IMG/VR virus record: IMGVR_UViG_3300033571_014509
Location: 1 to 40,503 of that record
DNA from: a virus
Length of the DNA stretch: 40,503 nt
Direction: 5' to 3' (one strand)
Part shown: one piece after another, positions 1-23,700 of the stretch
Layout of the letters: each line of letters begins with the position of its first letter
How positions within the stretch are numbered: position 1 is the stretch's first letter
The notes under the pieces: generated by a model
Told to the model about the DNA's origin: nothing
Databases searched by the model: none
What the model saw: the letters and a program-made list of their open reading frames with translations, nothing else
Program-made: the position numbers and the translations under genes

Positions 1-3000
1 TCCGTTGAGAGAGGGGATGCGGTGCCTGCCCTCTGGCGGGTCAACACTCCGCTTGATCAATTAAGGATCGGCAGCAGGTCCGCTAAATTGAATAGACCAG
101 ATCCATCCGGTCTTCGCAAGGGGGATTCTGAACGTGGCGAACCCGTTCAGGTCACACACGCGGAGGATGTACTCCAGCGGATCGTCAAAGACCCTAGCAA
201 CGACTCGATGTCCATCCTTGTTGCCCAGCACCTTCTCGACAAATTCGGAACGTCGGGCCGACTCCGCAGTATCCCCGTGGACGTCTATGAGAGCCTAGAG
301 GCTGGTATCCTTGGAGAATACAACACGGCTACCAAGCGCATTGGACTTGAGTCGTCGAGCGATGCGGAGACTTCTCTCGAAGAAGTTCTCCACTCACTCA
401 CGGCAGACCGGAAGCTGCCCGCTGGGGTTCAGGACCTTTTCAAAAGGATTCGCACTGAGGCAGTCCGCAAAGGGCTAACCTCCAAGGACCAGTGGACTCG
501 GGCCGCAGATCCCTCAATACTCAACAAGGAAGAGGGTGATGCTTTCCACTACGCATTCTCCGACCCACACGAGTTGCTTGCCGCTGCGCTAAAGAACCGC
601 TCAGTACGCGACGCACTCAACAACCTTGAAGTTCGTGACTCGATCACCGGAAAGCTGGTCAACGCCTGGAAGAAACTCAGGGATACATTCAAAAAGATGC
701 TCGGGTTCCAGGTCCGGGATAACTCGGCTCTCGACCAGTATCTTAACAGGATGTTCGACCACATGATTCGACCTGAGGATACGAATCCGCTTGACTCGGA
801 GGGGGGTAATGGTATATTATACGCACATGGCGAAAAATCAAAAATCTCAGAAGATCCATCAGTCGGATTCATCTACCCTTCCGGGTCCAATCGAGAAAAC
901 AATTATCGCAAACCGGAAAGCCTCGGAGCACTTGCGAAACAGACCCAAGATGTCGTTTCAGGAAGTAATGGCAATGGCCGCACGCAACGCTCCCTCTCAG
1001 ATTCCTTCGGATTACTAAGGGAGATTGTCGACAAAGAGGGACTCAACATTGTCCCCGCATTCTTCAAGCGCATCTGCAATGAGCGCACGATGCTGCGCGA
1101 TTCAAAGGGAGAATCAATCTCCGGAGCAGAACATACGCCTTATTATGATGGAACCTCAGGCCGAATTATTAAAATTGCCCACGCCGACGATTTTGGTAGC
1201 GGAGCGATTGGGAATAAAGGGACTCCCGATTATTTCACAGGTCTACACCTCAATAACCTTTTGTTTGATACTACCACTCGGTTTGAGGGGTTGATCAACA
1301 CCGGAGAGGGAGAGCTTCCGCAAGTAGTCACCTCACAGCCGTTCTTCGATGGTCGCCCGGCCACAACGAAAGAGATCGCAAAAGATCTGATTGCAAGAGG
1401 GTTCACCCGCATTGGAGGAAAAGACTCTAACCTCTGGGAACACAAGGAGCTGGGCGTCAAACTCCACGATAACGTACCCAAGAATGTGATGCGGCTTCCT
1501 GATGGGAGCCTACGCTATTTCGACGTAGACGTTTCCCTCTCCGAGGGGAATACCGTTGAAAACGTCGAGCGCATACTTAACCAGGAAAACCAAAGGCTCA
1601 ACGCGATCCGGACGAATAAGGCAGGAAATCCCCTCTTCGGAGGTTCAAAAGAAAAAACTACCGCGCTGGACGAGCCGGAAAAGACTCTATCCCCGGAACT
1701 TCAGAAAGCTCTCGGCGACACATCCTACGTCCCGTTCAAATGGAAAGAAGATGCTGGCCAGGTCAGTAAATGGCTTAACGACGCGGCCTCGGCTGACGGG
1801 GCAACCTGGGAAAAGATCGCTATGGACCTCATGTCCGAAGAGCCAGTCTCAGGGATCTCAGAGCGACAGAAGTTGGTAGGAAAGTTCATGCTCACCAAGT
1901 CGCTCGACAACGCGGCGTCAGATCTCCGCAAAGCCGGTAAGGTGTACGAAGCAGCTCGGTACAACAAGCTCGCCAAGACCCTTTACAAAACCGCAAAGCT
2001 GGACGCTAGTGCCTATGGACAGGGGCTGAATACGGTGAAGATGCTTACTGAGCTGGTCAGCGGTAACACCGCGCTCTCGGAATACGTTGATCCAATTTCC
2101 AAAGTTCATTACGAGAAACTTGCCGGGCGTGGAGAAGTAGCCGACCTCCTAGGAACCCTCAAGGGGAGTATGGAGGCCGGGGCCGACACAACGGTGGCTA
2201 AGTCAACCCCCCTGCTCGAAAAATTGGTTGAGGGTAAGAGCACCTCAGAATTGGGGCGCATCGTTAAAGAAGCCCTACTCAACCCCGATTCAACCCCCGA
2301 GTCTTTGGCCGGAGAAATTGCGGAAGCCGCAGGAGTTACCCCTGAGAAAGCTGCTCCCGCAGCGGAAGCAATTCGGAAAGTGTTTACACTCGAAGCCCGC
2401 AAATCTGCCAAGGCCAATCTGGATAGATTGGTCAAGAACGCCGAGTCCCAGGAGCAGAGAGCAAAACTCAAAAAGATCGTGGAGTCTGATTCCGATAAAC
2501 TAATGGGGCTCATTGGTCTGGGAGCGATGTCGGAAGAGAAATACTACAACGCGATCTCCAAGACCTACGGCCTCCCGAGCTGGGACCCGACGTTTGCCAA
2601 GTTCATTGAGAAAGAGGGCGAGAAGATTGCCGCACTGCCCCAGTCGATGAAGGACTACCGCCAGCAGAAAACCCAGCGACTCATGGGTGAGATCGCCAAG
2701 AAAGTCCGTACCGAAAAACTCAACAACAAGGACGCCGGAGAGATTGCAGATCTACTTACGACGTTCTGGCAACTGGGCGTTCTGAGTGGGCCTCCTACCC
2801 AGGTTGTCAACGCGATTGCTTCCGGGGCCAGTGTTGCAGGGGAATCTTTGGTGGAGGGCTTCGGGGCCGCTCTGAAAACCGGAGACTCCAAGCACATTGC
2901 TGAAGTATTCTCTGGATTCCTCCAAGCTATTTCAGGGAAAGGCGGGGCTAAGGGTCTGGCTGGCCAAGAGTTTTCAAGGGCCTTTAAGGAAGGGACCAGC

Positions 3001-4734
3001 AAATACAAGAACTCTAAGGGCGAAACCCTTTCCTCCATGGAGACACTACCTGATGCCGAAGACCTTCAGGGCGTCATGAAATTTTTCTCCGCCTACGGGA
3101 ACAAGCTCAAGTATGTGGGTCGATCTATGGCGGCGTTTGACTCCGCAAACATGGCTATGGCTGAACTGGCCGCAGAGCGCAGAGCGGCCCGCTACTTCCT
3201 CCAGTCCGAGAAGGGACTTAAAGGTGAGGCGCTGGAGTCCGGAATGAAGGATCTCTTCGATCCGGAAAGCGGAACGGTCGAAAAGCTCCGTGCTCAGGCT
3301 GAGCAAGAAGTTAAGGACGGGAACTACGCTGACGAAACCCCGGCAGACCAAAACCGCTGGGTGGAGCGTCGTGTCAACGAGCTTCTCTCCCAACGTCGCG
3401 ACGAACTGGCCGGAGGAGGCATCTCAGAAGCCGCTATCCAAGCCGCTGAAAGGTTCACCTACAACGACGACGCCCGTGGAATCCTAGGTCAGTTTGCCGG
3501 GTTCATGAACCAGATCAACCAAGAGACCAAGGTCTCGAAGTTCGTGATCTCGTTTATGAAAACCATGATGAATTTGGTCAACCAGACGGTTGATTGGTCT
3601 CCCTACGGCTACCTGCGGGGCGCTAACAAATCATTCAGCCAGACCCGTTTCAAAGAAGGCTCCAGGTTTGACCCTTACCGCTACACGGAGGGAAGCACGG
3701 AGCAGTACGCTCAGTACGCTCGGGCGACTATTGGAACACTGGCTTGGGCTGGGCTTGCTTACCTGGCCTACAAGGGTCTCGAAGAGGAGAAAGAGGGCAA
3801 CCCCCCAGTATTCTCGATCCATGGGGCGGGGCCTTCCAACAGCTACGACAAGCAGCAGCTACTTGCCACCCGCAACTGGCAGCCCAACTCCATCAGGATA
3901 GGTGGTCACTGGCTCAGGTACACGGATTGGCCGATACTCGGAATGGCTCTGGGTGGAATGGGCTCGTTCTTTGATTCCATGCGCTACGCCAAGGACGAAA
4001 GCACGACTTCAGAAAAGCTCTTTGCGGGCGCGATGGCCACCGCCTCCACGGTACTGGACAAGAATATGCTCCAAGGCGTATCCAACTTGTTCGAGGGCAT
4101 CCGCCAGTCCAGCAATTCTACCCAACAGGCCAATGCGCTGAAGCGTCTCATCTCTGGGGCAGTCGGAGGGTTCACTAATCCTGGTATGGCTAAGTGGGCC
4201 CGCAACTCGTTCTACGCAGATAAGGACGGCATGGTGAACCGACTCGATCAAAGCACCTTAGAGGGCTGGGCCTACTCCATGGTCCCGTTCTCAATGGGGT
4301 ACAATACCCCGGCTCTCAACACTCTTGGCGAACCCCTTCAACAGCCTTGGTACTCCGCCACCATGTGGAGGTTTGCCGATGTCAGCGGGGTGCCCCCTCA
4401 CCCCATCATCACGCCTCTGGTGAAGTCCGGATTGATGCTCCCTAACCCGAGCAAAAACACGGAGTTCCGCTATCTCGACAAGACCGGGGCGATGCAAAAA
4501 ACCAAGGTCGGAAAGTACCCCGAAATTAACAGGCGCTTTGTCGAGCTGCGAGGCCAGGCAATGAAAGAGATGCTGACTCCTGAGATAGTAGAAGACCTTA
4601 GCCGGATGGCTAAGCAGGAGAACCTCAACGAGGTACAGTCATATCTGGATTCCAAGGTCGGGGGCGCGGCGAGAAAATACGCCATCGCCCAGATCGAGCA
4701 GGAGATCCAAGACGGGAAACTACGACTTGATTAA
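1..4734 (+). CDS. Giant phage polyvalent protein (5'-partial): degenerate metallopeptidase-like, kinase-like and LPD-type helical regions
   Basis: The frame is open to the left edge, so the GTG at 22 may not be the true start; residues below count from it. Residues 95-230 resemble the metallopeptidase-like domain of phage polyvalent proteins: a helix with EEVLH (120-124) where HExxH is expected, then a downstream DPHELLAAAL (181-190) carrying the usual third-ligand Glu. The first His is Glu here, so zinc binding is doubtful. Residues 330-510 resemble the polyvalent protein-kinase domain: IIKI (candidate ATP-binding Lys), LHDNVPKNVM (481-490, catalytic-loop-like D...N) and FDVD (500-503). The rest is mostly helical; GPPTQVVNAIASG and RSMAAFDSANMA recall large-polyvalent-protein-associated (LPD) regions. 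Such proteins are thought to enter the host with the phage DNA. The end overlaps the next gene convergently. Domain calls are from memory of the families. Confidence 0.8.
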   Translation, partial: SVERGDAVPALWRVNTPLDQLRIGSRSAKLNRPDPSGLRKGDSERGEPVQVTHAEDVLQRIVKDPSNDSMSILVAQHLLDKFGTSGRLRSIPVDVYESLEAGILGEYNTATKRIGLESSSDAETSLEEVLHSLTADRKLPAGVQDLFKRIRTEAVRKGLTSKDQWTRAADPSILNKEEGDAFHYAFSDPHELLAAALKNRSVRDALNNLEVRDSITGKLVNAWKKLRDTFKKMLGFQVRDNSALDQYLNRMFDHMIRPEDTNPLDSEGGNGILYAHGEKSKISEDPSVGFIYPSGSNRENNYRKPESLGALAKQTQDVVSGSNGNGRTQRSLSDSFGLLREIVDKEGLNIVPAFFKRICNERTMLRDSKGESISGAEHTPYYDGTSGRIIKIAHADDFGSGAIGNKGTPDYFTGLHLNNLLFDTTTRFEGLINTGEGELPQVVTSQPFFDGRPATTKEIAKDLIARGFTRIGGKDSNLWEHKELGVKLHDNVPKNVMRLPDGSLRYFDVDVSLSEGNTVENVERILNQENQRLNAIRTNKAGNPLFGGSKEKTTALDEPEKTLSPELQKALGDTSYVPFKWKEDAGQVSKWLNDAASADGATWEKIAMDLMSEEPVSGISERQKLVGKFMLTKSLDNAASDLRKAGKVYEAARYNKLAKTLYKTAKLDASAYGQGLNTVKMLTELVSGNTALSEYVDPISKVHYEKLAGRGEVADLLGTLKGSMEAGADTTVAKSTPLLEKLVEGKSTSELGRIVKEALLNPDSTPESLAGEIAEAAGVTPEKAAPAAEAIRKVFTLEARKSAKANLDRLVKNAESQEQRAKLKKIVESDSDKLMGLIGLGAMSEEKYYNAISKTYGLPSWDPTFAKFIEKEGEKIAALPQSMKDYRQQKTQRLMGEIAKKVRTEKLNNKDAGEIADLLTTFWQLGVLSGPPTQVVNAIASGASVAGESLVEGFGAALKTGDSKHIAEVFSGFLQAISGKGGAKGLAGQEFSRAFKEGTSKYKNSKGETLSSMETLPDAEDLQGVMKFFSAYGNKLKYVGRSMAAFDSANMAMAELAAERRAARYFLQSEKGLKGEALESGMKDLFDPESGTVEKLRAQAEQEVKDGNYADETPADQNRWVERRVNELLSQRRDELAGGGISEAAIQAAERFTYNDDARGILGQFAGFMNQINQETKVSKFVISFMKTMMNLVNQTVDWSPYGYLRGANKSFSQTRFKEGSRFDPYRYTEGSTEQYAQYARATIGTLAWAGLAYLAYKGLEEEKEGNPPVFSIHGAGPSNSYDKQQLLATRNWQPNSIRIGGHWLRYTDWPILGMALGGMGSFFDSMRYAKDESTTSEKLFAGAMATASTVLDKNMLQGVSNLFEGIRQSSNSTQQANALKRLISGAVGGFTNPGMAKWARNSFYADKDGMVNRLDQSTLEGWAYSMVPFSMGYNTPALNTLGEPLQQPWYSATMWRFADVSGVPPHPIITPLVKSGLMLPNPSKNTEFRYLDKTGAMQKTKVGKYPEINRRFVELRGQAMKEMLTPEIVEDLSRMAKQENLNEVQSYLDSKVGGAARKYAIAQIEQEIQDGKLRLD
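827..1018 (+). CDS. Possible nested small gene (63 aa) inside the polyvalent protein gene
   Basis: This 63-residue frame lies at +1 relative to the long frame, in the low-complexity linker between the metallopeptidase-like and kinase-like domains. It starts MAKNQKSQKI and ends QIPSDY. Its ATG follows a TATATTATACGCAC segment that resembles both a -10 box and the GGTATATT half of the motif recurring upstream of other genes here. Its composition is plausible for a real basic protein, while the long frame is Ser/Asn/Gly-rich at this point. It may be a true overlapping gene, a remnant of a gene captured by the fusion, or chance. Confidence 0.28.
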   Translation: MAKNQKSQKIHQSDSSTLPGPIEKTIIANRKASEHLRNRPKMSFQEVMAMAARNAPSQIPSDY

Positions 4735-8453: not shown

Positions 8454-8481
8454 AATGGTGCGAATGGTTCAAATGTGTCGT

Positions 8482-14477: not shown

Positions 14478-14650
14478 GGGTGCATACGTTGAACGGCTGC
14501 GTTTAGCTGATTGCAGCGTTTGGCCGCGTCGTACTCGGACTCGTAATTGGCTACTAACTTTTTCGCACCTTCGTCTCCGATGGCGTAGACTCGGTAAACA
14601 AGTCTGTAGTGATTGTTGGAGTCCACACACTTGAAGTAGTCGTACCGCAT
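14474..14650 (-). CDS. Hypothetical protein, 58 aa
   Basis: Start at ATG 14650 (MRYDYFKCVDSNNHYRLVYR), overlapping the last base of the MoxR-like stop. A longer frame upstream only shadows the ATPase gene. A short beta segment is followed by a helix (ESEYDAAKRCNQLNAAVQRM). No family recognised. Confidence 0.55.
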   Translation of the reverse strand: MRYDYFKCVDSNNHYRLVYRVYAIGDEGAKKLVANYESEYDAAKRCNQLNAAVQRMHP

Positions 14651-15666
14651 TAGGCGAATACCTCCTGATTCTCCGTGACCCACGTGGTGAACGCGGGGGT
14701 AGCGCACAGAGAGGTGTTGAGGTTGACGGCAGTCTTCAGTGCAAAGACTGAGAACTCCTTGGGGAAGCGATCGACGTAGGTCAGGAAGTTGGCCATCGTC
14801 TTGGGCTTCACCTTCTTGGCGAGTCCGGCGCACGTGGCGTAGATCACACTGGGATCGGTCGGCACGTCGGCCTTCTCGGGGTTGAGCAGGACGGCGTCGA
14901 GGTCGGGCAGCTTCTCGTAGACTCCGAGGAAGCCGAGGAACTCAGCCGAGGCACCGGAACCAAGCACACCCTCCAGCAGTGCGTGGCGCACGTGGCGGTC
15001 GGTGCAGGTGGCCGTGACTGTAGCGGCTTTCTCCCAAGTACGGGGCGAAGCAAAGTTGCTCACGCCGTCCCACTGGGCACCATTGAAGGTGGAGAGGAGG
15101 TCGGGGCGGAAGCGGATGAACGCGATGACCAAGGGGTCAACGCCATTCTTCTGAGCCCACCTGATCCAGCTATCCAGATCGAGGCGCACCTTGATGTTGA
15201 CGATGCGGTTCACGACTGCCGAGCTGAGCTTCTCGATGTTGACTCGATCCTCGGCGCGGTTGCCAAGCAGGCAGACGAACGAGTTCTCAGGCAACACGTG
15301 CTCCCCTACCCTGCGGTCGTTGAGTAGTTGCAGGGCTACGTTCTGCACCGCTCTCGTAGCGCAGTTGAACTCCTCTAGCCCGATGACAGGGTTAGCGGTC
15401 TTCGGCCAAAAGGAAGGCTTGGAGAAGCGCATGGTCTTGTGACCCGACTCGTCGGTGTCCAAGTACGGGAAGCCCTGCACATCCTGCGGGGCGTAGTAGG
15501 CAAGGCGGGCGTCGATGAACTCAGCACCGATCTCTCGGGCATACTCGGCGACGACAGCGGACTTACCGACTCCTGGCTGTCCTTGGATGAAGGGGTTGAG
15601 CTTGGCGGCGTGGCAGTCTTTGAGGACTTGTTTGAGCTGTGACGTTGTTACCTCGATGGTGGTCAT
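14650..15666 (-). CDS. MoxR-like AAA+ ATPase (338 aa)
   Basis: Walker A is GQPGVGKS (29-36), then DARLAYYAPQDVQGFP. The Walker B region is VIGLEEFNCA, with LEEF rather than DEE; sensor 1 is CLLGNR, followed by LSSAVVNRI, as in MoxR-type AAA+ ATPases. Known MoxR proteins act as chaperones for VWA partners, for example in inserting cofactors or activating enzymes. The VWA/metallopeptidase gene lies 0.8 kb downstream and the DUF3150 gene just upstream, a set I recall from other phages. The start leader is a 29-bp duplicate of the next gene's leader. Confidence 0.85.
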   Translation of the reverse strand: MTTIEVTTSQLKQVLKDCHAAKLNPFIQGQPGVGKSAVVAEYAREIGAEFIDARLAYYAPQDVQGFPYLDTDESGHKTMRFSKPSFWPKTANPVIGLEEFNCATRAVQNVALQLLNDRRVGEHVLPENSFVCLLGNRAEDRVNIEKLSSAVVNRIVNIKVRLDLDSWIRWAQKNGVDPLVIAFIRFRPDLLSTFNGAQWDGVSNFASPRTWEKAATVTATCTDRHVRHALLEGVLGSGASAEFLGFLGVYEKLPDLDAVLLNPEKADVPTDPSVIYATCAGLAKKVKPKTMANFLTYVDRFPKEFSVFALKTAVNLNTSLCATPAFTTWVTENQEVFA

Positions 15667-17105: not shown

Positions 17106-17150
17106 TTTGTTTTAGGGTTTGCTTGTCCGGTCTGGACAAGGGTTAAGGGA

Positions 17151-17357
17151 TCAAAGGTTGAGGGTTAGTTGATGGAGGTTAGTGTGAGGTAAGTTGATGC
17201 AGTTGCGTGGTAGTTGAATATACCCGCCGACTTTCCAATGGCGGTCGATGCGAGCGATCCATGCCCGGCAATGGTTCTGACAGCGGTATGCTTGGTCATC
17301 CCATCGCCGGAGCTGGTTGATCGCGCTCAACTGCTTCGCTTTACGCAGGGCGCTCAT
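17151..17357 (-). CDS. Small basic protein (68 aa)
   Basis: Starts MSALRKAKQLSAINQLRRWD. Rich in Arg, Trp, Cys and His (YRCQNHCRAWIARIDRHW), ending LHQLTLNL. It overlaps the upstream gene by 17 bp and is followed by a TTGTCC dyad. No family recognised; the C-terminal part looks low in complexity. Confidence 0.5.
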   Translation of the reverse strand: MSALRKAKQLSAINQLRRWDDQAYRCQNHCRAWIARIDRHWKVGGYIQLPRNCINLPHTNLHQLTLNL

Positions 17358-17727
17358 CCTTGGTTGAGGTTGCGGTTGCCTTGGCGATTGCGGCTTGTGC
17401 CTTTAGGTAGATTCGATCAAGAAGGTTTGGGGCATCGGATTCGTCGCTCTCTGCGAGTTCTTTCATAGACTGCAAAGCGGCCAGCAGATCTTTAGTAGCC
17501 TCCTCGACCGCTTTGTTGATGGCATCGTTGATGGCCGAGTCGAGATCCTCGATGTAGTCGGCGACTTCGGAGGTTTCCATCCTCTCGAAGGGTTCCCAGA
17601 TAAGGATGTCTTTGTGATCCTCGGAGACCTTTTCGAGTATGGTCTCGAAGTCGTTTTTCTTTGGGTAATCCGACAGGATAAACTCAATCGCGATCTTCTC
17701 GGAGGGTAGTAGTTTGGGATTATTCAT
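17341..17727 (-). CDS. Acidic helical protein (128 aa)
   Basis: Starts MNNPKLLPSEKIAIEFILSD. Long predicted helices (VADYIEDLDSAINDAINKAV; TKDLLAALQSMKELAES) with a net acidic charge suggest a coiled-coil or dimer. No domain recognised. Confidence 0.6.
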   Translation of the reverse strand: MNNPKLLPSEKIAIEFILSDYPKKNDFETILEKVSEDHKDILIWEPFERMETSEVADYIEDLDSAINDAINKAVEEATKDLLAALQSMKELAESDESDAPNLLDRIYLKAQAAIAKATATSTKDERPA

Positions 17728-17732
17728 AGGTG

Positions 17733-17891
17733 TTAGGAGTTAAGGACAAAGGCCAAGGTCAGACCGAACGCGGTTGCAAGGATGCAGAAGAACAGGAGAG
17801 CCAAGATGGAGTAGCTCCATTCGATCTCTCGCTTGGTCTGCTGTCGCAGGAGGTAGGGTCGGACTAGGGTGTCGAGTTCTTGTGTGGTCAT
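17733..17891 (-). CDS. Small single-TM protein (52 aa)
   Basis: ATG 17891 to TAA 17733. The polar N-terminal helix (MTTQELDTLVRPYLLRQQ) leads into WSYSILALLFFCILATAFGL, a clear membrane helix with a short tail. A longer frame on the same strand overlaps it but has no sensible composition. A start with the standard CCTAAAAC-type leader supports this frame. Confidence 0.6.
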   Translation of the reverse strand: MTTQELDTLVRPYLLRQQTKREIEWSYSILALLFFCILATAFGLTLAFVLNS

Positions 17892-17910
17892 AAACTTGTT
17901 TTAGGTTCAC

Positions 17911-17947
17911 AACTTGTTGCATGGTATATGCAACCATGCAACAAGTT
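17911..17947. promoter_or_regulatory. Perfect 14-bp inverted repeat enclosing a GGTATATGCAACC motif
   Basis: AACTTGTTGCATGG (17911-17924) and CCATGCAACAAGTT (17934-17947) are exact complements around a 9-nt spacer. The centre contains the GGT...ACC motif (17923-17935). It sits 20-56 nt before the ATG at 17891. An operator or promoter-overlapping site is likely; as RNA it would be a very stable hairpin. Confidence 0.65.
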
Positions 17948-17978
17948 TGTGGGTCATAGGGTTGTTGTCCGGACTGGA

Positions 17979-18647
17979 CTAGGCGGCAAGTAGTCGGCGG
18001 CGTGCAGGTAACGTGCTGGCAAGCACCGCGTTACGAGCGGCACGGGCATGACTGTGAGCGTGGCATTGATCTTTAGCCGCCTCGAATCGGGCGGGCAGAG
18101 TCAGGCCGAAACGCTGTATCGAGACAGCAGCTTTGTGGCACCATTCGAGGACAAACTCGAAGGGATACGGGACGCGGCTTCGCAGATACGAGGCAACATA
18201 CTCATCCAGCCACTTGATCTCGTGGTAGAACACTAGGGCACCGAGGTCGGCCTCGGTCACGCTATCGAGCAAGAGGTTTGCGCTGTAGTCCTTCACCAGT
18301 CGATAGATCTCGGAGATGCCCTGTGCGGGGAGGTCATCCACTTGAGGCAGATAGACCAGACCATCGGAAGGAATGGCTCCTCGTACCGCCTCGATATGCC
18401 GCCTTGTCGTCGGGCTGAAGGATCGCAGGGTTACAAGGTACCAGAGCTTTCCGGTGTCAGGTGCCTTCCACTTCCGAGCAATGCAGAAGTGCTGGCCGTA
18501 GGAGTAGATGCTACCGGTGACGGGGTGCCGATCGCAGGATGACCCGTAGGCAATCATCCGGTTCTTGTCGGTGTTGGCACGCTCGGTGATGGTGCCGCTC
18601 ACCCAGTCTCGGGCAAGCTCGTCGTTGTTCTTGTAGTATGTTTTCAT
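17979..18647 (-). CDS. SYGxHF-type phage protein (222 aa)
   Basis: Starts MKTYYKNNDELARDWVSGTI; the diagnostic stretch is IYSYGQHFCIARKW followed by WYLVTLRSFSPTTRRHIEAV. I recognise the iYSYGxHFxIA...T-x-SxTTxxH pattern from a large family of small phage proteins without known function. The C-terminal half (LVFYHEIKWLDEYVASYLRS and an Ala/Arg-rich tail) is not part of that motif. The stop codon is formed by the right arm of a TTGTCC dyad. Confidence 0.7.
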   Translation of the reverse strand: MKTYYKNNDELARDWVSGTITERANTDKNRMIAYGSSCDRHPVTGSIYSYGQHFCIARKWKAPDTGKLWYLVTLRSFSPTTRRHIEAVRGAIPSDGLVYLPQVDDLPAQGISEIYRLVKDYSANLLLDSVTEADLGALVFYHEIKWLDEYVASYLRSRVPYPFEFVLEWCHKAAVSIQRFGLTLPARFEAAKDQCHAHSHARAARNAVLASTLPARRRLLAA

Positions 18648-18674
18648 GGTAGGTTCGTTTCGTTATTGGGTTGC

Positions 18675-18687
18675 GGTTAATGATACC
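18675..18687 (-). promoter_or_regulatory. GGTATCATTAACC motif upstream of 17979-18647
   Basis: Minus-strand GGTATCATTAACC, 27 nt before the ATG at 18647 and immediately beside a TTGTCC dyad (18688-18704). Confidence 0.4.
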
Positions 18688-18711
18688 TTGTCCGGACAGG
18701 ACAAAGCGGGG

Positions 18712-19416
18712 TTAGATGTTGGCGCATAGCTCGATTGCGAGCTTGTCTTGGTGTTTAAGGTGGCTGTCGATGATGTACCTGGCTTCCTCGATGACATAAT
18801 CGAAGTTGCCTTTTTCGTCGGGGAAGTAGCCCCAGCAGGAGTCGATCTCCTCGCCTTCCTCGTCCTCGACGATGCGGCCAACGACATCCCCTCGCATGAA
18901 GGCGTCGTACTCGCTCACCTCTGCCTTGAGGCAACGGGTAGCCCGCTCGATGGACTCCTCCAGCGTGTCGCTGGGCCATTCCTTACGGGCTTGCTCGAAG
19001 CTGATGTAGATGTAGCCGACTTGTCCGCTGTCCCAAGGGCACGAGAACTTTCCCGTACTCATTGACAGACCGCCGTGGTCATAGAGATAGAGCGGCAGGA
19101 TGACATAATTCTTATCAACATACTCGCGGGCTTGCTTGAAGGATTCCTCATCCAACAGGCTGAGCGGGTCAAGGTAGTCGTCGTAATCGTCCGTCTCGAT
19201 ACCGAGCAACCTAGCCTTGGCTTCAAAGTAAGGTGCGGCGAGTTGCAGGATGAAATCGGTAGGCGAAGCATAGTCATGCTTCTCTCCGAGGTTATAGCGG
19301 TTGTGCCAGCAAACCATCTTGCCAGCCGGATCGCAGTCTTCGCGGGGATTCCAAGGGTCTTCGTCTTGTTCGAGTCGGATGGTGCATCCTTTGTAGGTTT
19401 CTTCGTGGTAGCTCAT
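18712..19416 (-). CDS. Conserved phage protein with LPLYLYDH and CPWDSGQVG motifs (234 aa)
   Basis: Acidic. Motifs in order: DEDPWNPREDCDPAGKMVCW near the N-terminus; YVILPLYLYDHGGLSMS; FSCPWDSGQVGYIYIS; EVSEYDAFMRGDVVG; EEIDSCWGYFPDE. I recall this exact motif order (DPWNPRE, LPLYLYDHxG, CPWDSGQVGxIY, YDxxxxGDVxG, DSCWG) from many phage genomes. It is always uncharacterised, sometimes near antirestriction genes. Complete length for the family. Confidence 0.75.
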   Translation of the reverse strand: MSYHEETYKGCTIRLEQDEDPWNPREDCDPAGKMVCWHNRYNLGEKHDYASPTDFILQLAAPYFEAKARLLGIETDDYDDYLDPLSLLDEESFKQAREYVDKNYVILPLYLYDHGGLSMSTGKFSCPWDSGQVGYIYISFEQARKEWPSDTLEESIERATRCLKAEVSEYDAFMRGDVVGRIVEDEEGEEIDSCWGYFPDEKGNFDYVIEEARYIIDSHLKHQDKLAIELCANI

Positions 19417-19468
19417 TTTGTTTTAGGGTTGAAGGGTTGCTTTGTCGCTTGTCCGGTCTGGACAAGGG

Positions 19469-19822
19469 TTAGGCATCCCAAGGCACAAGACCTTTGCGCC
19501 ATGAGACTTCGAGGGTAATCTTGCAATCATCCCATTGACTGACGGGGGAGATCTCCCACTTATCCCACTTGATGTCGCCGTCCTCGGTCTCATCAGTCCC
19601 GACATAGAGGCGGGTCTTCATGAGGCGGGCAGGTCGTGTTCCGTCCTTAGTCGTGAGGGTATGAGTGGCACCACGATCGCGTGACCAAGCGCAGGGGGCG
19701 CAATGGAACACCTCATGGGTGTGGCCGTACTCTTTCTCACGGACGATGGAGAGGGTGAAATACCCCGTTTGCGATAGCAAAGGTACTTCGCGATTGACGA
19801 AGGGATTTAAGGTCATGGGCAT
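19469..19822 (-). CDS. Hypothetical protein, 117 aa
   Basis: Starts MPMTLNPFVNREVPLLSQTG (an alternative ATG lies two codons in). Contains EVFHCAPCAWSRDRG, a CxxC-type knuckle, and a beta-rich C-terminus with IKWDKWEISP. No family recognised. A TTGTCC dyad follows the stop by 3 nt. Confidence 0.55.
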   Translation of the reverse strand: MPMTLNPFVNREVPLLSQTGYFTLSIVREKEYGHTHEVFHCAPCAWSRDRGATHTLTTKDGTRPARLMKTRLYVGTDETEDGDIKWDKWEISPVSQWDDCKITLEVSWRKGLVPWDA

Positions 19823-19853
19823 GAGTGTAATTTTGATGCTTGTCCGGTCTGGA

Positions 19854-20141
19854 CTAGTGAATCACGGGAACAGGGTTGCTAGGGAATAGGCGCTTCAGGG
19901 AAGGGCGGTCACACTTGAGGACAAACGCTTGTCCCGTACCCTTCGGGTGTCCCCACGGATTCTCCATGCGGGACACCGCTTCCTCGTCGCTATCTGCAAC
20001 AAAGCCGCCGCCACATCCGTTACCTCTGTAGCTGTATGAGTAGCGGCCTTGATCGGGGGCGTAATTGTTCTCGTCACGATACAGCTCCAGCCAGTCGTGA
20101 CCTTTAGTTTGCCAGCGGGCAATCGCAGTGGTTGAGTCCAT
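19854..20141 (-). CDS. Hypothetical protein, 95 aa
   Basis: Start at ATG 20141 (MDSTTAIARWQTKGHDWLEL); the frame stays open upstream through the 8-bp repeat array, but that extension is repeat-encoded. Contains GRYSYSYRGNGCGGGFVADS and GQAFVLKCDRP. The TAG stop lies in the right arm of a TTGTCC dyad. Confidence 0.6.
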   Translation of the reverse strand: MDSTTAIARWQTKGHDWLELYRDENNYAPDQGRYSYSYRGNGCGGGFVADSDEEAVSRMENPWGHPKGTGQAFVLKCDRPSLKRLFPSNPVPVIH

Positions 20142-20386
20142 AGGATTAGTGGATAAGAGGTGCAGGGTTGCAGGATTGCAGGATTGCAGGATTGCAGGAT
20201 TGCAGGGTCGCAAGGTTGCAGGGTCGCAAGGTTGCAGAGTAGGGAGTCCGTTTCGGAATCAAGGGGGCTACCCTCAGCAATGGATTGCGCTAGTTTTTCG
20301 GCTCGCTCCAAGCGTTCGGAGCGTGAGGTGGACGGCACCCAGCAAAAGCTGAAGTCGTCGGGATTGTGGTCGTTGTAGGTTGGCAT
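19895..20386 (-). CDS. Small protein with repeat-driven read-through (164 aa as read; about 50 aa native)
   Basis: Start at ATG 20386 (MPTYNDHNPDDFSFCWVPST). The native part is about 50 residues to SETDSLLC. From there the frame runs through the 8-bp repeat array (NLATLQPCDPAILQSCN...) and then out of frame over the 5' half of the downstream gene to 19895. The tail is almost certainly an artefact of repeat expansion that removed the original stop. Its leader shares 18 bp with that of the gene at 38782-38976. Confidence 0.5.
   Translation of the reverse strand: MPTYNDHNPDDFSFCWVPSTSRSERLERAEKLAQSIAEGSPLDSETDSLLCNLATLQPCDPAILQSCNPAILQPCTSYPLILWTQPLRLPAGKLKVTTGWSCIVTRTITPPIKAATHTATEVTDVAAALLQIATRKRCPAWRIRGDTRRVRDKRLSSSVTALP
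20160..20240. repeat. Ten-unit array of an 8-bp repeat, GCAGGRTY
   Basis: Consecutive units read GCAGGGTT, GCAGGATT (four times), then alternating GCAGGGTC and GCAAGGTT, ending GCAGAGTA. Single or double degenerate units occur near 5605-5630, 11273-11320, 14235, 15325, 18420, 21029, 24522, 25125-25150, 25240 and 25465-25495. Confidence 0.9.
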
Positions 20387-20403
20387 GGTCGTGTTTTGCG
20401 CCA

Positions 20404-20680
20404 AAGGCGCAGGTTCATTTTTATAGGGTTGCCCCGCACTTGCTGGCGGCAGGGCTTAGCCGTTGGAATCTGATGGATCGACTTGCTGGCGTTGATCTGG
20501 CCATTAGCTTTTAGCTCCCGACTGGCTGGCTAGGGTGTTGGCCGTAACTCGTATGAGTTTGAGTCCCACTTTCCTTCCAACTCTGGACACCATTCGAGAC
20601 CGCTGGGGTCATGGGGTCGGGGCTAAAGATGATGTAAAAGTGTCGCGGTTAATGATACCGAGCCGCTTGTCCGGACTGGA
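20404..20680. other. Gap of about 280 bp with a small hairpin and no gene
   Basis: GCGCC-AAA-GGCGC (20398-20410) is a short hairpin near the start of 19895-20386, and a GGT...ACC motif lies at 20647-20659 with no obvious gene for 260 bp downstream. No tRNA folds well here. A short untranslated RNA from that motif is possible. Confidence 0.3.
20647..20659 (-). promoter_or_regulatory. GGTATCATTAACC motif, gene target unclear
   Basis: Identical to the copy at 18675-18687 and, like it, located just downstream of a TTGTCC dyad. The next minus-strand ATG (20386) is 260 nt away. Confidence 0.35.
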
Positions 20681-20764
20681 CTAGGCGAAGAGGCAGAAGA
20701 TGATGAAGGCGCAAAAGGCTGAGTAGAGAGCGAAGCCAAGCGCGTTGAGTAGGATCGGGGTCAT
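20681..20764 (-). CDS. Tiny hydrophobic membrane peptide (27 aa)
   Basis: ATG 20764 to TAG 20681 gives MTPILLNALGFALYSAFCAF followed by IIFCLFA, almost entirely hydrophobic. The TAG is the right arm of the dyad at 20667-20683, as in three larger genes, and a GGT...ACC motif lies 22 nt upstream. The gene architecture therefore supports it despite its size. Confidence 0.55.
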   Translation of the reverse strand: MTPILLNALGFALYSAFCAFIIFCLFA

Positions 20765-20786
20765 AATTTGTTTAAGGTTGAATTGT

Positions 20787-20799
20787 GGTTGCATATACC
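20787..20799. promoter_or_regulatory. GGTTGCATATACC motif between divergent genes
   Basis: Lies 22 nt before the minus ATG at 20764 and 32 nt before the plus ATG at 20832, so it could serve either or both. Confidence 0.4.
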
Positions 20800-20831
20800 G
20801 GCAGAAAGTGATAAGGCAAGTGGTTTCGTAT

Positions 20832-21533
20832 ATGAATCAACTAAACGTGCCTTGGGATAAGATTAAAGACGCGGTAGAATCTGGGATGCCCATGCGCCAA
20901 GTTGGAGAGTTGTTTGCCATCAAACTACCTACGATCAAGGCGAGGAGCTTGAGGGAAAAGTGGTCTACGCCGAAACGCCGTTCGGATGCATTGAAAAAAG
21001 AGTTATCGGAGAAGGGTAACAGAGTAGCAGGGGTGCAGGATCGCATGGTTGCAATCAACAATTCCTTGGAAGAACAGATGAAGGACGCGGAAGATGGTCA
21101 AATATCTACAGCGAGATCGAAAGTGGTTGATTTTGACCAAGCGACTAAGGATTACCGGAGCAAAGGCGTTCTCAAGATGGCAAAGCTACTCGATCAAACG
21201 ATTATTGCGCCCCCTCGCACTTGGAAAGACTACGACATTGCTGACAAGATGATGAGGAGACTGCTAGGCATTGACGACAACGAAGGGAAATCCAACACGA
21301 TTGTTAGTCTACAACTAGTCAACGATCGCTTGGCCGCAGGGCGGCAGGATGACATCGTAGAGGGCGATTTCATCGAGGAAAGTGTCCCCGAGGCGTCATT
21401 TTCTGACCCTCTACAGAGTAAATTGACGGGTGCCAAGTCCGCTCCCCCTTCCGGTGAAGTACCGGAAGAGGGTCAGGGCTTGTCCGGACTGGACTATTCT
21501 GCCGACTCGCCAGCCTCGAGGGCGGCAGAGTAG
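20832..21533 (+). CDS. HTH protein, terminase-small-subunit-like or regulator (233 aa)
   Basis: Start at ATG 20832 (MNQLNVPWDKIKDAVESGMP). An N-terminal helix-turn-helix (MRQVGELFAIKLPTIKARSL), then REKWSTPKRR, resembles the DNA-binding end of phage terminase small subunits and relatives (VxxGMSxRxxAExFGVxxxTxxxRxxREKW). The middle is helical (GVLKMAKLLDQTI; DIADKMMRRLLG), and the tail is Pro/Ser/Gly-rich. It is a lone plus-strand gene inside a minus-strand block, and its last 40 bp overlap the 3' end of 21494-21886. A transcriptional or packaging role is possible. Confidence 0.6.
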   Translation: MNQLNVPWDKIKDAVESGMPMRQVGELFAIKLPTIKARSLREKWSTPKRRSDALKKELSEKGNRVAGVQDRMVAINNSLEEQMKDAEDGQISTARSKVVDFDQATKDYRSKGVLKMAKLLDQTIIAPPRTWKDYDIADKMMRRLLGIDDNEGKSNTIVSLQLVNDRLAAGRQDDIVEGDFIEESVPEASFSDPLQSKLTGAKSAPPSGEVPEEGQGLSGLDYSADSPASRAAE

Positions 21534-21886
21534 GCGCGGCGTAGAGCTACGTTTGCGTTGTCGGCGGCCAGCTCTACAGCCAACTCAACGAGTTGGGCAA
21601 TGATCGCCTCGTCTATGACGATCTTATTCTTCACAGTGGCGGCACGTTCGCGGATTCCAAGGGCGAGGAAGATCTCGGAAACCCTCTGCTTGGGAACCTT
21701 GTGAGCCGTGACCAGCTCCTTGCGAAGAGCCTTCAAAAGCTCCTTCTTGTTGTCCTTGTCAGATTCAACAAGAGCCTTGACGGCTTTCTTGGCGGCTTCA
21801 AGGGCTTTGTCGTAACCAAGGTGAATCTTGGCAAATTCGGCGACGATGACGGCGGTGGACTCGATGGTGATGTTATTGTTGTTCAT
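21494..21886 (-). CDS. Helical protein (130 aa)
   Basis: Start at ATG 21886, after the normal leader type; an upstream in-frame ATG (21953-21955) would add 23 residues encoded partly by a TTGTCC dyad and is less likely. Asn-rich start, then long helices (YDKALEAAKKAVKALVESDK; NKKELLKALRKELVTAHKVP). KVPKQRVSEIFLALGIRER looks HTH-like. The TAG is formed by the dyad at 21480-21496. Confidence 0.6.
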   Translation of the reverse strand: MNNNNITIESTAVIVAEFAKIHLGYDKALEAAKKAVKALVESDKDNKKELLKALRKELVTAHKVPKQRVSEIFLALGIRERAATVKNKIVIDEAIIAQLVELAVELAADNANVALRRAYSAALEAGESAE

Positions 21887-21961
21887 TTCAGTAGTGTTGT
21901 TGGATGTTTTAGGTTGAGCTTGTCCGGACTGGACAAGCGGTTTCTCTGTAGTCATTTGACT

Positions 21962-22012
21962 CCAGAAGTCTGCCCCCTATGTTATTTAGTAACAAAGGGG
22001 CAGGGTTTCTGG
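21962..22012. ncRNA. Three-segment 51-nt hairpin
   Basis: CCAGAA (21962-21967), TGCCCC (21971-21976) and GTTA (21981-21984) pair in order with TAAC (21990-21993), GGGGCA (21997-22002) and TTCTGG (22007-22012). The loop is TTTAG and the internal loops are small. Sixteen base pairs in register are unlikely by chance. Direction unknown. Confidence 0.5.
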
Positions 22013-22031
22013 TTTCAATAAATCGAGTTCA

Positions 22032-22067
22032 CAAGGGGAAGGTAAAGCTATTTACTCCCCCGCCTTG
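22032..22067. ncRNA. Second hairpin, 36 nt
   Basis: CAAGG (22032-22036) pairs with CCTTG (22063-22067) and GTAAA (22042-22046) with TTTAC (22051-22055) around a GCTA loop. G-rich and C-rich tracts between them can extend the stem. It lies 20 nt after the first hairpin. Confidence 0.4.
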
Positions 22068-22332
22068 CTACTTGCGTCGAGCGCCCTGCCGCCTTTTCAT
22101 CACTGACGAGGAGGCAACCTACTGGACTGATCCAGTGCCTTTCCCCGTGATGTTGGATTGATCATTCACAGGACTAACGCTTTGACGGCTTAGCTTGAAG
22201 GGCTTCCACTCCACCCTTCCGCTTGCGGCCTATGTTTCCACCGCCTTTCCCCCTTCCATGCGTACCTCGTTCCCAAGGGGTGCGAAGCAAGTTTCAGAGT
22301 TCAAGAGCGGCCTAGCCGACTGCCGTTTTTAG

Positions 22333-22382
22333 ACTGTTGCGGGTGATGTTCTGAAGGCAGCACCCGCTCCACCTTCAACAGT
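22333..22382. ncRNA. Third hairpin, 50 nt with two stacked stems
   Basis: ACTGTTG (22333-22339) pairs with CAACAGT (22376-22382), and directly stacked CGGGTG (22340-22345) with CACCCG (22361-22366). A 15-nt loop and a 9-nt bulge on one side remain. Thirteen pairs in total. Confidence 0.5.
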
Positions 22383-22557
22383 TAATGTCCACCCCACCCA
22401 TTTCCGGCTTGTCCGGTCGGGACAAAGGGGCCTCACGCGCGCGTCGCGTTCGTTAGAGGCAGACCTACCGGGGGTGGGGTGGGGAGTGGGGTAGGCCGCT
22501 CAGCTTCAAGACGTTACATATATACGCTTGCAAAAAAAAAGTTTCAAAACTTGCTCA

Positions 22558-22590
22558 TAGACAAACTCGAATTAAAAGGTATCATACACC
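22558..22590 (+). promoter_or_regulatory. Promoter of the HNH gene overlapping a GGTATCATACACC motif
   Basis: TAGACA (22558-22563), 16 bp, then TATCAT (22580-22585), the latter inside GGTATCATACACC (22578-22590). The ATG is 6 nt past the motif, so the transcript leader would be very short. Confidence 0.5.
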
Positions 22591-22596
22591 GCGCAT

Positions 22597-23700
22597 ATGA
22601 AAACTAAACTGAAACGCGGATGTGTTAGGGAAGACGGACTGGCATTTAACGTCAGGATAAACGGAGAAGACCAGTGGGTTTCCCCGGAAGAATTACAGGT
22701 AATTCGAGATGAGGAGCGAAAGTACTACCTAAAAAACAAAGCTAAAATCAAAGAACGGACAAGAGAATGGCAAAAGGCCAACCCAGACAGGTATCGGGAG
22801 CTAACCAAGAATTGGACGCAGAATAATCAGGATAGAATCGAGGCGTACAAGGCTAAGGCTAAAGAGGGGCGGAAACTGAAATCTGAAGAATACTGGAAGC
22901 AGTTCAACCAGGCTGTTCAAGAGAGGAGAAAAGCAAAAGCCGCCAGGATGGAGGTGGAAAAAGAATTGAGGCGTAAAGATAGGGAGGCTAAGCGCGAAGA
23001 GGCCGCTAAGAACCGGGCCGCGATTAAACGAGAAACGCGGGAGAAACACAGCGCGGAACGGAGGGAAGCCAAACTACTAGAGCAGAGGGAAGCCAAACTC
23101 CAGGGGAGAGGCTACAGGAGGAAAGACGGAAAGATTCTTTGGAAGCCAACGGGGAATAACCCAAGGAAGTGGGTGTGGGTTAGCCCGGAAACATTTGAAG
23201 GGCGAAGGCGGAAACTTCAAGAATACTGGATACAACGGGAAAAACAAAAAGCCATGAGCGAGGAAACGAGAAAAGCCCAGCTTCGGCGGAGGAGACAGAG
23301 GCAAAAAGAAAAATATCGAAGCAACCCAGAACTAAAAAGAGAATACAATCGGAAACAGAGGGCGCAGGAAAAGAGGAGGAATCCTGAAAAATATAAAGCC
23401 AGGAAAGCGGCGCAGAGGAAAGCTCGGGAAATCAAGGCGAAGGTTAAGCTGACTGACAGAGAGCGGGCACTTACCACGGAGATATACTTGCAGGCAGCTC
23501 GCGTTTCCAACTGCCTAGGAATACCCTTCCACGTGGATCATATATTGCCGATTATGCTCGGCGGACTTCACCACCCAACGAATCTTCGAGCCATCCCTGG
23601 AAATATCAACCTCAGCAAAAGCCATTTAATCACACCCGAAGTGGAAACCTGGCTGCTGGGCAGACCAGTATCGGAATTAAACCTCCAAAAAGCCGCTTAA
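22597..23700 (+). CDS. Coiled-coil HNH endonuclease-like protein (367 aa)
   Basis: About 280 residues of Lys/Arg/Glu-rich, probably coiled-coil sequence contain tandem-like units (KNKAKIKERTREWQKANPDR; RSNPELKREYNRKQRAQEKR). They end in an HNH core: IPFHVDHILPIMLGGLHHPT, then NLRAIPGNINLSKS. The D-H pair, the following L-G-G-L-H-H-P-T-N-L and N-x2-K-S match HNH nucleases with long charged N-termini found in phages. The plus-strand lone position suggests a mobile or moron gene. The IxPIML codons contain a TTGCCGATTATG word (23545-23556) that recurs as an iteron downstream. Confidence 0.75.
   Translation: MKTKLKRGCVREDGLAFNVRINGEDQWVSPEELQVIRDEERKYYLKNKAKIKERTREWQKANPDRYRELTKNWTQNNQDRIEAYKAKAKEGRKLKSEEYWKQFNQAVQERRKAKAARMEVEKELRRKDREAKREEAAKNRAAIKRETREKHSAERREAKLLEQREAKLQGRGYRRKDGKILWKPTGNNPRKWVWVSPETFEGRRRKLQEYWIQREKQKAMSEETRKAQLRRRRQRQKEKYRSNPELKREYNRKQRAQEKRRNPEKYKARKAAQRKAREIKAKVKLTDRERALTTEIYLQAARVSNCLGIPFHVDHILPIMLGGLHHPTNLRAIPGNINLSKSHLITPEVETWLLGRPVSELNLQKAA

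Follow-up and report, generated by a model that had tools for sequence, protein, structure and literature searches.

What is the function of a short dyad that recurs at the gene junctions of a viral minus-strand cluster? The dyad lies in a 40.5-kb record (40,503 nt), which was analysed at full length and is referred to as the window. A preliminary description made from the sequence alone had proposed two possibilities, a mobile or duplicated 3'-end module or the binding site of a regulator.

A directional dyad occurs nine times within 5.3 kb

The nine copies within 5.3 kb that had been described were confirmed: five match TTGTCC-N5-GGACAA exactly, and four carry GGACTA as the right arm. The copies, two genes next to them (one encoding a terminase-small-subunit-like, or TerS-like, protein) and the syntenic dyads of two related phages, G001 and G009, are listed below.

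17123-17139, minus strand: dyad 1, TTGTCCAGACCGGACAA on the sense strand; before a 362-aa gene, as is its syntenic counterpart G001:50658
17965-17981, minus strand: dyad 2, TAGTCCAGTCCGGACAA; its TAG is the stop of the ORF 17979-18647
18688-18704, minus strand: dyad 3, TTGTCCTGTCCGGACAA; abuts the promoter-like element GGTATCATTAACCGC
19449-19465, minus strand: dyad 4, TTGTCCAGACCGGACAA
19840-19856, minus strand: dyad 5, TAGTCCAGACCGGACAA; its TAG is the stop of the ORF 19854-20141
20667-20683, minus strand: dyad 6, TAGTCCAGTCCGGACAA; flanks the TerS-like gene on its 5' side; GGTATCATTAACCGC lies another 7 nt away; syntenic counterparts G001:46630 and G009:1488
20832-21533, plus strand: gene for the TerS-like HTH protein, a conserved landmark flanked by dyads
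21480-21496, minus strand: dyad 7, TAGTCCAGTCCGGACAA; inside the 3' end of the TerS-like gene, between the convergent TerS-like and HTH-like genes; its TAG ends the HTH-like gene; syntenic counterparts G001:45791 and G009:2280
21494-21886, minus strand: HTH-like gene for the candidate dyad-binding protein (130 aa, putative HTH), flanked by dyads
21920-21936, minus strand: dyad 8, TTGTCCAGTCCGGACAA; 33 nt upstream of the ATG of the HTH-like gene; syntenic counterparts G001:45024 and G009:2915
22409-22425, minus strand: dyad 9, TTGTCCCGACCGGACAA; outermost copy, intergenic

With up to one mismatch allowed, exactly these nine matches were obtained, all within 17123-22425 and none elsewhere in the 40.5-kb record. 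Allowing two mismatches increased the number to 14, compared with 1.65 ± 1.11 expected, and none of 100 shuffles reached 14.

On the sense (minus) strand, the consensus is T[T/A]GTCC-N-G-[A/T]-CCGGACAA, with 14 of 17 positions invariant across the nine copies. The arms had been described as invariant and the 5-nt centre as free. The first part holds for all arm positions except the second, which is T or A, while the second part has to be abandoned: the centre reads N-G-W-C-C in all nine copies, so that four of its five positions are constrained, and G never occurs at position 7. An A at arm position 2 creates a TAG, and the exchange at this position breaks a stem pair in four of the nine dyads without compensation. 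A GC flank follows the sense-strand dyad directly in seven copies.

All nine dyads have the same direction relative to minus-strand transcription, a polarity to be read with the caution that they may be of common descent. Overlapping constraints could also account for part of the asymmetry, as the left arm lies at a coding 3' end in some copies. Similarity between the copies stops within a few bases of the dyad, which speaks against a mobile or duplicated 3'-end module.

The dyads mark gene junctions rather than stop codons

The midpoints of eight of the nine dyads are non-coding, compared with 22 % non-coding sequence in the stretch (P about 5e-5). Nearly each junction of the minus-strand cluster contains one copy; the short junctions within the block 17151-17891 have none. 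Six dyads (17123, 17965, 18688, 19449, 19840 and 21920) precede the next start codon by 17 to 73 nt (distances of 17, 17, 32, 33, 40 and 73 nt), and many copies are equally near to this start and to the preceding stop.

The stop codons pointed out earlier were all found again. In the four copies with GGACTA, the CTA provides the TAG stop of a minus-strand ORF (at 17979, 19854, 20681 and 21494), one of which, ending at 20681, is a weak ORF of 27 aa; at 17123, 18688 and 19449, a stop lies 3-11 nt from the dyad. Assignment to gene 3' ends is nevertheless only half correct: stops do lie at or near the copies, but the copies are junction sites that are also close to the next starts, and dyad 22409 adjoins no gene end. 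Moreover, the syntenic dyad ends the minus-strand HTH-like gene in the window, but in G001 and G009 it ends the TerS-like gene, which is encoded on the other strand. The overlap with stop codons is therefore incidental, a by-product of palindrome ends that contain TTA, TAG or TAA in a tight junction.

Other repeats were observed in the same region. An inverted repeat with perfectly complementary 15-bp arms, AACTTGTTGCATGGT-N7-ACCATGCAACAAGTT, is located at 17911-17947, between dyad 17965 and the ORF that begins at 17891, and part of it recurs in inverted form at 20786-20799 in the upstream region of the TerS-like gene. About nine tandem 8-bp units GCAGGRTT occupy 20162-20237, in or beside two overlapping minus-strand ORFs whose frames are uncertain.

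Related phages carry their own palindromes at syntenic positions

The count of the motif in related phages that had been suggested earlier was carried out. Seven relatives (74-81 % identity) were reached via the AAA ATPase gene 14650-15666 and two more via the TerS-like gene. The spelling of the window was absent from all nine, but two of them contain repeated palindromes of their own.

G001 (IMGVR_UViG_3300044631_002111) harbours ten copies of the 18-bp palindrome TTATCCGATATCGGATAA, of which five are exact and five deviate once or twice at their outermost bases, and the core ATCCGATATCGGAT is kept in all ten. They are confined to 45.0-52.9 kb of 57.7 kb, and none was detected elsewhere in G001 even at three mismatches. 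G009 (IMGVR_UViG_3300006108_000897) contains four copies of TTAGCC-N6-GGCTAA in a 15.5-kb fragment, the count referring to this recorded part. No repeated dyad was found in the seven other records (G002-G008), six of which cover the TerS-like locus, and a search for alternative repeated operators in these dyad-free relatives gave none. In one of them, G008, the DNA polymerase and primase proteins nevertheless share 92-97 % identity with those of the window.

Site spelling is thus near-uniform within each of the three dyad phages and different between them, with the half-sites CCGGACAA, TCGGATAA and GCGGCTAA all keeping CGG-N-N-AA. At the same time, three positions are syntenic in all three phages: upstream of the HTH-like gene (dyad 8), between the HTH-like and the convergent TerS-like genes (dyad 7) and 5' of the TerS-like gene (dyad 6). 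Uniform spelling within a phage and divergent spelling between phages at the same places indicate a sequence-specific, trans-acting partner, and recognition by such a factor rather than stem formation alone. The earlier proposal of a regulator binding site gains support from this pattern, and the changes of the half-sites around CGG-N-N-AA are as would be expected of related recognition helices.

In a collection-wide scan, the window pattern was found in 48 stretches with one copy each. The spellings of G001 and G009 gave isolated copies only, apart from two located 56 bp apart in L104, and none of the L104 ORFs matched the candidate HTH-like protein. Searching 84,980 bacterial and archaeal genomes with the TerS-like and ATPase proteins revealed no provirus or host.

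The dyads could alternatively act as RNA hairpins, which define the 3' ends of mRNAs or serve in the protection or processing of individual cistrons. Indeed, all sites are foldable (about -5 to -10 kcal/mol for the 17-18-mer), and the nine window copies point with transcription and sit between cistrons. We nevertheless regard this explanation as improbable: the stem pair lost in four of the nine window copies is uncompensated, five of the ten G001 copies are changed at the outermost bases, the loop is conserved nearly as much as the stem, and instead of compensated drift from copy to copy, the spelling changes mainly between genomes. Uncompensated mismatches together with a conserved loop favour a dimeric DNA-binding protein over an RNA stem. 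In addition, G001 and G009 have separate hairpin-plus-T terminators, which precede the dyad located at the 3' end of the TerS-like gene, and none of the Rfam 15 covariance models matched the dyads at gathering score. Intrinsic terminators were rejected, as no sense-strand T-run follows any window copy and a terminator scan of the region remained at the shuffled level. With broken stems, missing T-runs and incidental stop codons, the copies do not support a mobile or duplicated 3'-end module.

Repetition before genes in one direction would also suit promoters of a phage RNA polymerase or N4-like hairpin promoters, and the ATPase gene shows 30-33 % identity to its counterparts in N4-like phages such as Littlefix and PA26. 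This role of the dyads is very improbable: the G001 sites, as near-perfect palindromes, have no intrinsic direction, PHROGs and Pfam gave no RNA polymerase match for a giant protein encoded in these phages, and the dyad-free relatives that encode the giant protein lack the sites. Hairpin promoters of an N4-type virion RNA polymerase were rejected, the giant protein matching a Kinase-PolyVal polyvalent protein and no polymerase. Its C-terminal part is encoded at 22-4734 of the window; in G002, G005, G006 and G007 the protein comprises about 2700-3080 aa, and the Kinase-PolyVal domain was identified in the G002 copy.

Finally, short junction palindromes could serve as boundary or recombination sites that let gene cassettes swap. 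Two small gene modules are arranged differently in the window than in G008/G002, the alignment of the window with G008 breaks near some dyads, and recombination between 17-bp repeats gave deletions in Cluster O phages (PMC4351075). Such shuffling, however, also occurs in relatives without dyads, the G001 homologue of 17979-18647 lies outside the dyad stretch, and dyad spelling goes with the phage instead of with the gene. Nor does any recombinase go along with the dyads; the integrase of the window record is likewise present in dyad-free relatives. A role as cassette boundaries is therefore very unlikely.

Among the relatives without dyads, L054 (about 1628-1933) and L056 (about 3271-3723) contain dense short direct and inverted repeats (TACCCTCACT; TCACTCCCCC) on the primase-facing side of the TerS-like gene, possibly their replication origins.

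A small HTH-like gene co-occurs with the dyads

The HTH-like gene at 21494-21886 is the only window gene that is present in all dyad phages and in no dyad-free relative. Homologues are located beside the TerS-like 3' end at G009:2424-2825 (minus) and G001:45142-45654 (plus). The window and G009 proteins share 38 % identity, and a two-member profile built from them detected the G001 homologue at the syntenic position (E 5e-5); across the whole set, the same profile gave nothing convincing in any dyad-free record. The gene is thus found in three of three dyad phages compared with none of the six dyad-free relatives covering the spot (Fisher P 0.012, a value that ignores the relatedness of the phages). 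This co-occurrence is a further argument for the binding site of a regulator.

AlphaFold predicts helices at 44-61 and 66-75 of the candidate, with a pLDDT of roughly 70-85 in this part and a mean of 67 overall. QR-x-SE-x(5)-G, common to all three proteins, lies in the second helix of the predicted HTH pair. An in-frame upstream ATG at 21955 would lengthen the candidate to 153 aa. Pfam and PHROGs gave no match and no HTH family, a fold search with the weak model (mean pLDDT 67) no structural match, and tblastn against 50,697 phage records no hit. A search for further relatives beyond the three proteins yielded none and no isolate.

At the corresponding spot on the TerS-like 3' side, the dyad-free relatives hold other small genes. 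G003, G005, G006 and G007 have a family with an RG-[TS]-x-Y-x-F-x(3)-ETP-like stretch, G002 and G008 another one of 102-119 aa.

Binding by a different phage protein, either a repressor encoded outside the fragment or the TerS-like HTH protein, is rather unlikely. The records of the window and G009 are fragments, and the TerS-like gene is flanked by dyads in all three dyad phages, but among the window genes the small HTH-like gene alone tracks the dyads. The TerS-like HTH protein was rejected as dyad binder: its gene is equally present in six relatives without a repeated dyad, and because it occurs with or without dyads, its product is an unlikely binder.

A dispersed set of operators and stoperators may control the cluster

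We consider it reasonably probable from the sequence comparisons that the dyads are a dispersed operator/stoperator set, which is bound by the HTH-like protein 21494-21886 and controls the minus-strand cluster. A putative HTH protein, most likely this gene product, would bind each 17-bp site as a dimer and thereby control the accessory genes from about 22.4 to 17.1 kb, by repression or by a block of elongation. The copy 33 nt upstream of its own ATG would mediate autoregulation. Dyads on or beside the promoter-like element (18688 and 20667) may represent ordinary operators, and the remaining ones, which lie in short junctions in the same direction, could act as stoperators blocking the passing RNA polymerase; no recognisable promoter was found beside most window dyads.

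The promoter-like sequence GGTATCATTAACCGC that adjoins these two dyads is common to all ten phages examined. The element GGTATMATNNACCRC is present in all ten related phages and is located in the window at 18673-18687 (minus), 20645-20659 (minus) and 22578-22592 (plus); with one to two mismatches it also occurs at 8480, 16003 and 32345 (all minus). A -35-like TAGACA lies 16 nt upstream of the 22578 copy, and an ATG at 22597 follows just after it.

More tentatively, the three proteins may constitute a family of small DNA-binding phage proteins, as yet without a name, that read palindromic, polar stoperators at nearly each junction of the cluster, protein and sites having possibly co-diverged into three codes. 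In this way, a protein family that lacks annotation might also receive a function. The joint switch of recognition code by a regulator and some ten dispersed sites is a question of phage immunity that, to our knowledge, has been studied so far mainly in mycobacteriophages. Here the phages belong to an unrelated group, three codes occupy syntenic positions, and a candidate protein (130-170 aa) can be named, which makes the question directly testable.

Comparison with known systems

The repressor of phiC31 binds conserved inverted repeats (CIRs), which are intergenic palindromes of about 17 bp in the early region. These sites are similar to the window dyads in being palindromic and intergenic, but phage group and protein are different.

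In cluster A mycobacteriophages (L5, Bxb1, Trixie), stoperators are asymmetric 13-bp sites that are bound by a monomer, with 20-30 sites across the genome (PMC6550527, PMC9283540). These repressor sites are dispersed genome-wide and oriented with transcription, one copy upstream of the repressor gene has been proposed to confer autoregulation, and site spelling diverges between related phages together with the repressor (PMC6550527). Similarly, the window sites are dispersed in short intergenic intervals and oriented with transcription, with the reservation on shared descent made above; autoregulation is proposed here too, and spelling differs between related phages. In contrast to cluster A, the sites described here are 17-18-bp dyads confined to 5-8 kb, including the near-perfect 18-bp palindrome in G001, and the candidate protein shows no relation to a named repressor family detectable in Pfam, PHROGs or the phage records searched by tblastn.

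Cluster O mycobacteriophages (Corndog) contain the 17-bp dyad TGTTCGG-N3-CCGAACA with constant arms, for which the authors propose a dimeric regulator site (PMC4351075). It is present in 34 copies genome-wide, many in short intergenic gaps and about one third inside genes, with little orientation bias and one spelling in all five phages; no single candidate gene is linked to it, and the phages are not obviously temperate (PMC4351075). Many copies of a 17-bp palindrome, often in short intergenic gaps, are common to both systems. The window dyads differ in their spelling (T[TA]GTCC-N-G-W-CCGGACAA), their uniform direction, the linked candidate gene and a different spelling per phage. Taken together, the window system would operate in the manner of cluster A stoperators or Cluster O dyads, yet it belongs to neither group.
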